DNA of 64,000 bases, from contig JACRDN010000005.1 in assembly GCA_016218575.1 (NCBI GenBank), forward strand, positions 62,001-126,000, written 5' to 3'. Positions 859 through 53,508 of the stretch are shown here, piece after piece. The translations under genes were made by a program, and so were the position numbers. A model generated the notes under the pieces. The model was not told the DNA's origin. It worked only from the letters and a program-made list of their open reading frames with translations, and made no database searches. Every line of letters starts with the position of its first letter. The first letter of the stretch is position 1. This DNA is from Elusimicrobiota bacterium. GTDB lineage: Bacteria > Elusimicrobiota > Elusimicrobia > UBA1565 > UBA9628.

Positions 859-898
859 GTTATCCACAAAAACTTCCTGGAAAGTTTTTGTGGATAAC
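859..898. repeat. DnaA-box palindrome, copy 1 (probable bidirectional terminator)
   Basis: A 17-bp perfect inverted repeat, GTTATCCACAAAAACTT and its complement, encloses a 6-nt loop (876-881). The outer ends are TTATCCACA and TGTGGATAA, which equal the E. coli consensus DnaA box in inverted orientation. The inner part (A-tract, short GC stem, T-tract) has the layout of a bidirectional intrinsic terminator and sits between two convergent genes. Related copies lie at 28910-28948 and 53469-53508. Confidence 0.85.
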
Positions 899-28873: not shown

Positions 28874-29062
28874 TAGTCAGAGGGCTGTCCCGGCGACGTC
28901 AATTCCGTAGTTATCCACAAAAATTCCCGGGAAGTTTTTGGGGATAACTTTTGCCTGGATTTCGTTTAACGTGCCTCACGGGGCCTAGGCCTTAAGGCCC
29001 ATGGCAATGGGTTCCGGCAAAAGCCCGCCCGGGGCAAGCATTTTTGCGTGGTGCCGCAAGAA
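28874..29062. other. Intergenic region between envelope operons
   Basis: This 190-bp stretch holds DnaA-box palindrome copy 2 and a 12-bp perfect palindrome GGCCTTAAGGCC at 28988-28999. No open frame with coding character is seen. The next gene's promoter follows immediately. Confidence 0.5.
28910..28948. repeat. DnaA-box palindrome, copy 2 (degenerate)
   Basis: A 39-bp inverted repeat, GTTATCCACAAAAATTCCCG on the left. The left box is a perfect TTATCCACA; the right reads TTATCCCCA on the reverse strand, one mismatch, and the left arm lacks one C. It lies downstream of the TMTC-like gene where a terminator would be expected. Confidence 0.8.
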
Positions 29063-53468: not shown

Positions 53469-53508
53469 GTTATCCACAAAAACTTCCCGGGAAATTTTTG
53501 TGGATAAC
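53469..53508. repeat. DnaA-box palindrome, copy 3
   Basis: A 40-bp near-perfect palindrome, GTTATCCACAAAAACTTCCC followed by its complement with one mismatch and no loop. Both ends are perfect DnaA boxes. It lies between the convergent nadB and an exported gene. Confidence 0.87.

Follow-up and report, generated by a model that had tools for sequence, protein, structure and literature searches.

A palindrome of 40 bp at positions 53,469 to 53,508 of this stretch raises the question of what kind of element it is and why it recurs. The initial annotation regarded it as one of a dispersed family, built from inverted DnaA boxes around a terminator core, that could both end transcription and titrate DnaA. 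The window, i.e., the whole stretch of 64,000 nucleotides analyzed here (G000:C5:62001-126000), belongs to a genome (G000) of 2.82 Mb in 23 contigs, 97% complete and related to Elusimicrobia MAGs. As judged from its sequences, the family is probably composed neither of transcription terminators nor of replication-protein sponges. The REP-like nature of the palindromes is proposed with fair confidence, and it is likely that they are REP-like elements recognized by a Y1/RAYT-family protein, for which the best candidate is encoded at G000:C19:242730-243623.

Three palindromes in the window

Three near-perfect palindromes of 39–40 bp are present in the window, far above chance: the arm sequence GTTATCCACAAAAACTT at up to three mismatches gives six matches in the 64 kb, versus 0.05 expected in shuffles, and all six are the two arms of the following elements.

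859..898, no strand: palindrome copy 1, AT-core sub-type, GTTATCCACAAAAACTTCCTGGAAAGTTTTTGTGGATAAC
28910..28948, no strand: palindrome copy 2, 39 bp, one arm a base shorter
53469..53508, no strand: palindrome copy 3, GTTATCCACAAAAACTTCCCGGGAAATTTTTGTGGATAAC, read directly

Five of the six end 9-mers are exact TTATCCACA, as had been pointed out, and the remaining one is TTATCCCCA; the right end of copy 2 reads TTATCCCC, not TTATCCAC. The gene context is also as first described, with each copy after a stop codon, two of them flanked by convergent genes and the third by tandem ones. Copy 1 lies 21 bp past the stop of a plus-strand gene (BipA C-terminal part) and 6 bp ahead of the end of a convergent minus-strand gene (UPF0164-like), copy 2 lies between tandem plus-strand genes, and copy 3 is flanked by convergent genes for a fumarate reductase/succinate dehydrogenase-type flavoprotein (plus) and a 254 aa protein of unknown function (minus). 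An Rfam search of the 64-kb window gave a tRNA and nothing else.

Genome-wide distribution and build of the repeat

Searches with the arms at up to three mismatches, and with both ends and an open middle, gave about 51 copies in 2.82 Mb, i.e., a mean spacing of 55 kb, in a census of genome-wide pattern and model searches that strongly degenerate copies may escape. The dispersed family with inverted TTATCCACA-like ends, and the many copies expected from the window, are thus borne out; the density in the window is somewhat above the genome average. The span from TTATCC to GGATAA is 37 or 38 bp in all 51 copies. There are two sub-types: one has an AT core, AAAAACTTCCCGGGAAGTTTTT, and the other, not mentioned in the initial annotation, has a GC core, CGAACTTCGCNGCGAAGTTCG, with a GC-rich TTATCCACCGAACTTCGCNGCGAAGTTCGGTGGATAA and no T-tract. 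When the arms of all copies are compared, the symmetry reaches two bases further out, A(G/C)...(C/G)T, and then ends; the repeat unit is 42 bp. The flanks are unrelated for nearly all of the copies and common to a handful, indicating that what is repeated is the palindrome itself; a larger mobile unit was rejected on the same comparison. About 60 bp of flank is common to three copies (C11:60119, C14:173675, and C16:44711 of G000), and the copy at C11:60119 is the center of a larger inverted repeat with ends TAGTGCTCCGACCGACC...

The positions of the copies along the contigs are compatible with random placement, and an even, clock-like chromosomal spacing is not seen. Forty of the 51 copies lie outside every crudely called ORF, and several of the remaining 11 are at over-extended ORF starts. 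Of approximately 40 clearly extragenic copies, 13 are found between convergent genes; eight copies are found between divergent genes. Target-site duplications of 2 to 9 bp do not occur above the level of shuffled flanks, as is expected for Y1 transposition. The dinucleotide directly outside the ends is mostly CT, and CT is the dinucleotide cut by TnpA-REP (PMC8266576).

Related elements in other genomes

A set of 117 related genomes was compared, with a covariance model first and an open-core pattern second (TTATCCMC-N18-26-GKGGATAA, the middle being unconstrained). The open-core pattern matches 21 of the 117 genomes, and its reversed control almost none. Several genera of the family, as well as one genome of a sister family, have like-ended elements of nearly equal length. 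Across these genomes the ends are conserved as A(G/C)TTATCC(A/C)C, and the core sequences vary from genome to genome with a median pairwise identity of 41%; the cores are at least 60% self-complementary in 40 of the 41 distinct elements examined. In pair counting among the related elements, where a few alignment rows came from the structure (covariance) model and related copies are not independent, 93.4% of the core cells hold standard pairs, 141 cells show changes on both sides versus 45.5 in shuffles, and the covariation score is 0.506 versus 0.153 shuffled and 0.06–0.09 slid. Because the core is unconstrained in the search pattern, this self-complementarity is no artefact of selection for most of the rows. 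Conserved ends, together with a core kept only in its self-complementarity, are the signature of recognition at the ends and as a hairpin. Furthermore, cores that are common within a genome and different between genomes point to copying. The family thereby provides a natural experiment, in which a repeated palindrome has fixed ends and a core that keeps self-complementarity alone.

Several observations accompany this comparison. In G005, a genome of the same family, the palindrome and the flank at its locus match a published Elusimicrobia MAG, RIFCSPHIGHO2_02_FULL_57_9. The strict AT-core pattern gives scattered matches among 84,980 species genomes, for example in Clostridia, a spirochaete MAG, and a delta-proteobacterial MAG, and one Elusimicrobia MAG was matched. 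Another palindrome class, 40 bp long, is found in G039, G014, G030, and G002; its ends read TTATCC(A/C)C, and most of its cores are arranged around CAACGTTG. In G037, one palindrome (G037:C1:1052438-1052475; L129:4439-4476) lies inside an ORF, where it contributes about 14 in-frame codons within a variable loop; it is absent from the orthologues, and since these mostly differ in length by about 6 aa rather than 14, there is no clean empty site. Text searches of open-licence papers found no earlier description of this palindrome family.

A degenerate RAYT-type protein as the candidate partner

Two RAYT-type genes of the window genome come into consideration.

G000:C19:242730-243623, strand not stated: candidate partner protein, single-copy, RAYT-type
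G000:C23:71743-72604 (L187:3744-4604), plus strand: second RAYT, with an intact HUH (NHLH) and tyrosine motif

The candidate is a protein of 305 aa with an N-terminal Y1_Tnp domain (PF01797, E 7.5e-10) and a weak match to PF08299, which is the sole match to the DnaA domain IV profile in G000. It scores 72.5 bits against the NCBIfam REP tyrosine transposase model, under the cut-off of 80. The best match of its AlphaFold model (pLDDT 85) is 4er8, a RAYT in complex with a REP hairpin, and the C-terminus of the model also matches 3pvp, the DnaA DNA-binding domain on a DnaA box (TMt 0.68, rmsd 1.1); a profile search against the PDB gives DnaA domain IV at E 5e-5. The protein is thus predicted by modeling to be a REP-transposase fold joined to a DnaA-domain-IV-like C-terminus.

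This sub-type is found as a single copy in 32 of the 117 genomes, and its scores are bimodal: 375–566 bits in these 32 and less than 190 for the other Y1 proteins, from which it is clearly separated. In every one of the 29 orthologues that were read the HUH motif has been destroyed (SEVH, GYVQ, NSVN, SYVH, etc.), with no HxH at the motif position, and the catalytic tyrosine is kept in some of the 29 and lost in others. By known criteria, therefore, the candidate is no active nuclease. In eight of the ten genomes that were compared, the degenerate RAYT gene adjoins or neighbors that of a very large protein without Pfam match (L120:5787-11000, with homologues in G001, G002, G005, G011, G027, G037, and G040), which indicates vertical inheritance of the candidate gene. 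In DnaA, contact with the box is made by residues of the D-H-T stretch. This stretch is not conserved in the helix-turn-helix (HTH) of the candidate, so that a DnaA-like sequence is not necessarily what its DnaA-like domain reads.

Linking the protein and the palindromes

Palindromes are present in 16 of the 32 genomes with the candidate versus five of the 85 without it (Fisher 3e-7, the genomes being related and not independent), and of these five, two seem to be matches by chance or of oriC type. Within the family, the figures are 15 of 22 with and 3 of 22 without the candidate (P 3e-4). In genus g11, both are present in three genomes and both absent from four, and in genus g8, several genomes of which are incomplete, the correlation is weak. 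Against the pairing, half of the candidate-bearing genomes have no such palindromes, and G034, G039, and G043 (70–91% complete) have palindromes without the candidate gene. In G016, palindromes lie on both sides of the candidate gene, at distances of 60 bp (downstream) and 300 bp (upstream), and in G014 a degenerate copy is found 652 bp from the gene; no flanking palindrome was found in G000 or at the other loci examined. G017 has a 43 bp palindrome upstream of its candidate gene, but in a single copy only, and it was set aside as giving no support.

From these data, the protein is considered with moderate confidence to be the best candidate partner of the palindromes, a link that we infer from co-occurrence and fold. 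The intact second RAYT of G000 could be an alternative partner, or may be what moves the elements; a TTATCC palindrome was not found near it.

A mechanism can then be proposed. REP-like extragenic palindromes would have spread within the genome as exact 42 bp units, of which the ends, A(G/C)TTATCC(A/C)C, would be the conserved recognition sequence, and the middle would need only to be self-complementary, as a single-strand hairpin or as a cruciform extruded from the duplex. The single-strand hairpin is presumed to be the acting form. Its recognizer would most likely be a protein of the Y1/RAYT family, each lineage would have amplified its own elements separately, and a related active RAYT would have done the spreading. 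With the HUH motif lost, the candidate would today bind the palindromes and not cut them. In other words, an inactivated transposase equipped with a copy of the DNA-binding domain of a replication protein may have its sites in the palindromes.

Possibly, although we regard it as rather doubtful, a REP-type transposase has been domesticated in this Elusimicrobiota order: with catalysis lost and hairpin recognition and the DnaA-type domain kept, it would have become a chromosome-binding protein that reads DnaA-box-mimic palindromes and might organize the nucleoid or sense single-stranded DNA behind the fork. Apart from this possibility, the palindromes offer a candidate repeat partner to those RAYT-type proteins whose DNA-binding domain is DnaA-like; a published survey reported that REP-like repeats were not found for such proteins, and it questioned whether this domain reads the target (PMC6006769).

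Alternative explanations

The palindromes might instead be duplex sites, operators or nucleoid-organizing sites of a symmetric non-Y1 protein, spread by selection and not by mobility. Symmetric conserved ends, the fixed spacing of 37–38 bp in 51 of 51 copies, and the dispersal over the whole chromosome would suit such sites. However, a reader of duplex ends needs no arbitrary self-complementary core, the sharing of cores within a genome and their difference between genomes speak for copying, and the spacing is random, not even. This explanation is unlikely.

The second explanation, that the palindromes are DnaA-binding sites for titrating DnaA or for coupling the start of replication to their loci, starts from a conspicuous number: of the 63 exact TTATCCACA that the genome contains, 56 fall inside palindromes, and the other seven are the background level of a reversed control pattern. 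Genome-wide TTATCCACA counts can thus be dominated by one repeat family, and predictors of DnaA boxes or origins would be misled by it. In relatives with canonical DnaA, TTATCCACA-like boxes do adjoin dnaA. The ends nevertheless vary where DnaA is intolerant (TTATCCACC, and in relatives TTATCCCC): C occupies base 9 in 26 of 102 arms, relatives frequently end in TTATCCCC, and bases 3 and 5, which are free in the DnaA-box consensus TTWTNCACA, are nearly fixed in the arms. Ends in CCC, common in relatives, depart from the CACA end of that consensus. DnaA also gives no explanation for an arbitrary core that is self-complementary. Moreover, a canonical DnaA domain IV was not found in this 97% complete assembly, and its relatives have a canonical DnaA: PF08299 is matched in 40 of 40 high-quality genomes searched, and the single weak match of the window genome is in the RAYT-like protein. 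A 511 aa protein of G000 (G000:C20:73301-74836; L074:7302-8837, minus strand) has the DnaA ATPase domain PF00308 and no domain IV. The DnaA device of the initial annotation is not supported by this pattern of variation, by which the ends are disfavored as DnaA boxes, and we hold this explanation to be quite unlikely.

Third, the copies might be bidirectional intrinsic terminators, i.e., RNA hairpins with a U-run at gene ends, selected for ending transcription. The predicted RNA hairpins are stable, convergent genes enclose 13 of the clearly extragenic copies, and each of the window's three copies comes after a stop codon. A GC-rich stem with a U-run is, however, found in part of the copies only: a run of five T on either strand is present in just 26 of 51 (25 are without), the GC-core sub-type has no T-run, the T-tract is paired within the stem, and most cores of relatives lack it. 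The copy at 53469 was not flagged by a terminator scan. The eight copies that separate divergent genes do not fit a location at transcript 3′ ends. A selected RNA hairpin should favor G-U over A-C mismatches, and the ratio among copies between tandem genes, in the transcribed orientation, is 17:17, which counts against a terminator. On the T-run count, the terminator scan, and the mismatch ratio, termination as a general function was rejected, and the terminator core that had been proposed for the three copies is not supported; we judge this explanation very unlikely.

Finally, classical MITEs moved in trans by a DDE transposase would likewise be short, palindromic, dispersed, and without internal genes, but they are disfavored by the absence of target-site duplications (2 to 9 bp, against shuffled flanks) and are hardly credible here.

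Comparison with known systems

Like solo DnaA boxes and datA-type titration sites, the palindromes contain TTATCCACA; unlike them, their ends vary at bases 9 and 7, are fixed at positions that are normally free, and always occur as a pair with a palindromic core between them. They share with bidirectional intrinsic terminators a stable stem-loop that is often found between convergent genes, but they show no general U-run or G-U bias and occur between divergent genes as well.

The REP-like reading finds closer parallels. As with GTAG-type REPs and REPINs, the palindromes are short, dispersed, extragenic, and lineage-specific in sequence, and are able to form a hairpin, to judge from the covarying cores. 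As with REPs served by a RAYT (TnpA-REP), a Y1 REP-transposase-like protein is associated with them, and the flanking of the gene by repeats, which is known from RAYTs, is seen for the candidate in G016, weakly in G014, and not in G000 or at the other loci examined. The differences are also clear. REPs carry a GTAG tag (PMC8266576; PMC6006769), whereas the palindromes have no 5′ GTAG/GTGG: at 0–2 nt 5′ of the hairpin no such tag is found, the flank consensus is (G)(A)A(G/C), and T is at −3 in six of 102 arms. Furthermore, the unit here is fully symmetric over 42 bp, its outer ends being conserved and its core free, the copies number only tens, and the best candidate protein has no HUH motif, unlike RAYTs.

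TIRtrons/TIRYTs (Di Nocera 2013, PMC3733652), which largely correspond to TnpA-REP subclass 2.1 (Quentin 2018, PMC6006769), provide another comparison. TIRYTs carry an HTH related to Bac_DnaA_C (PMC3733652), and the candidate is likewise a Y1 protein with a C-terminal HTH resembling Bac_DnaA_C; in both cases the repeat families are inverted or self-complementary and have no GTAG. No REP-like sequences were found near the subclass 2.1 genes, and their flanking motif, GGGGWSAS, is said to be unlike the DnaA box (PMC6006769). The palindrome ends, GKGGATAA, agree with this terminal inverted repeat (TIR) motif at 5–6 of 8 positions, a partial match and not a set of flanking TIRs with GGGGWSAS, and on sequence grounds they appear intermediate between that motif and a DnaA box. 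In TIRYTs the HUH motif and the tyrosine are kept, whereas the candidate is degenerate; here, by contrast, the ends are DnaA-box-like and the repeats genome-wide. Taken as sequences, the palindromes would thus seem to resemble a new branch of the known REP/TIRYT repeats.
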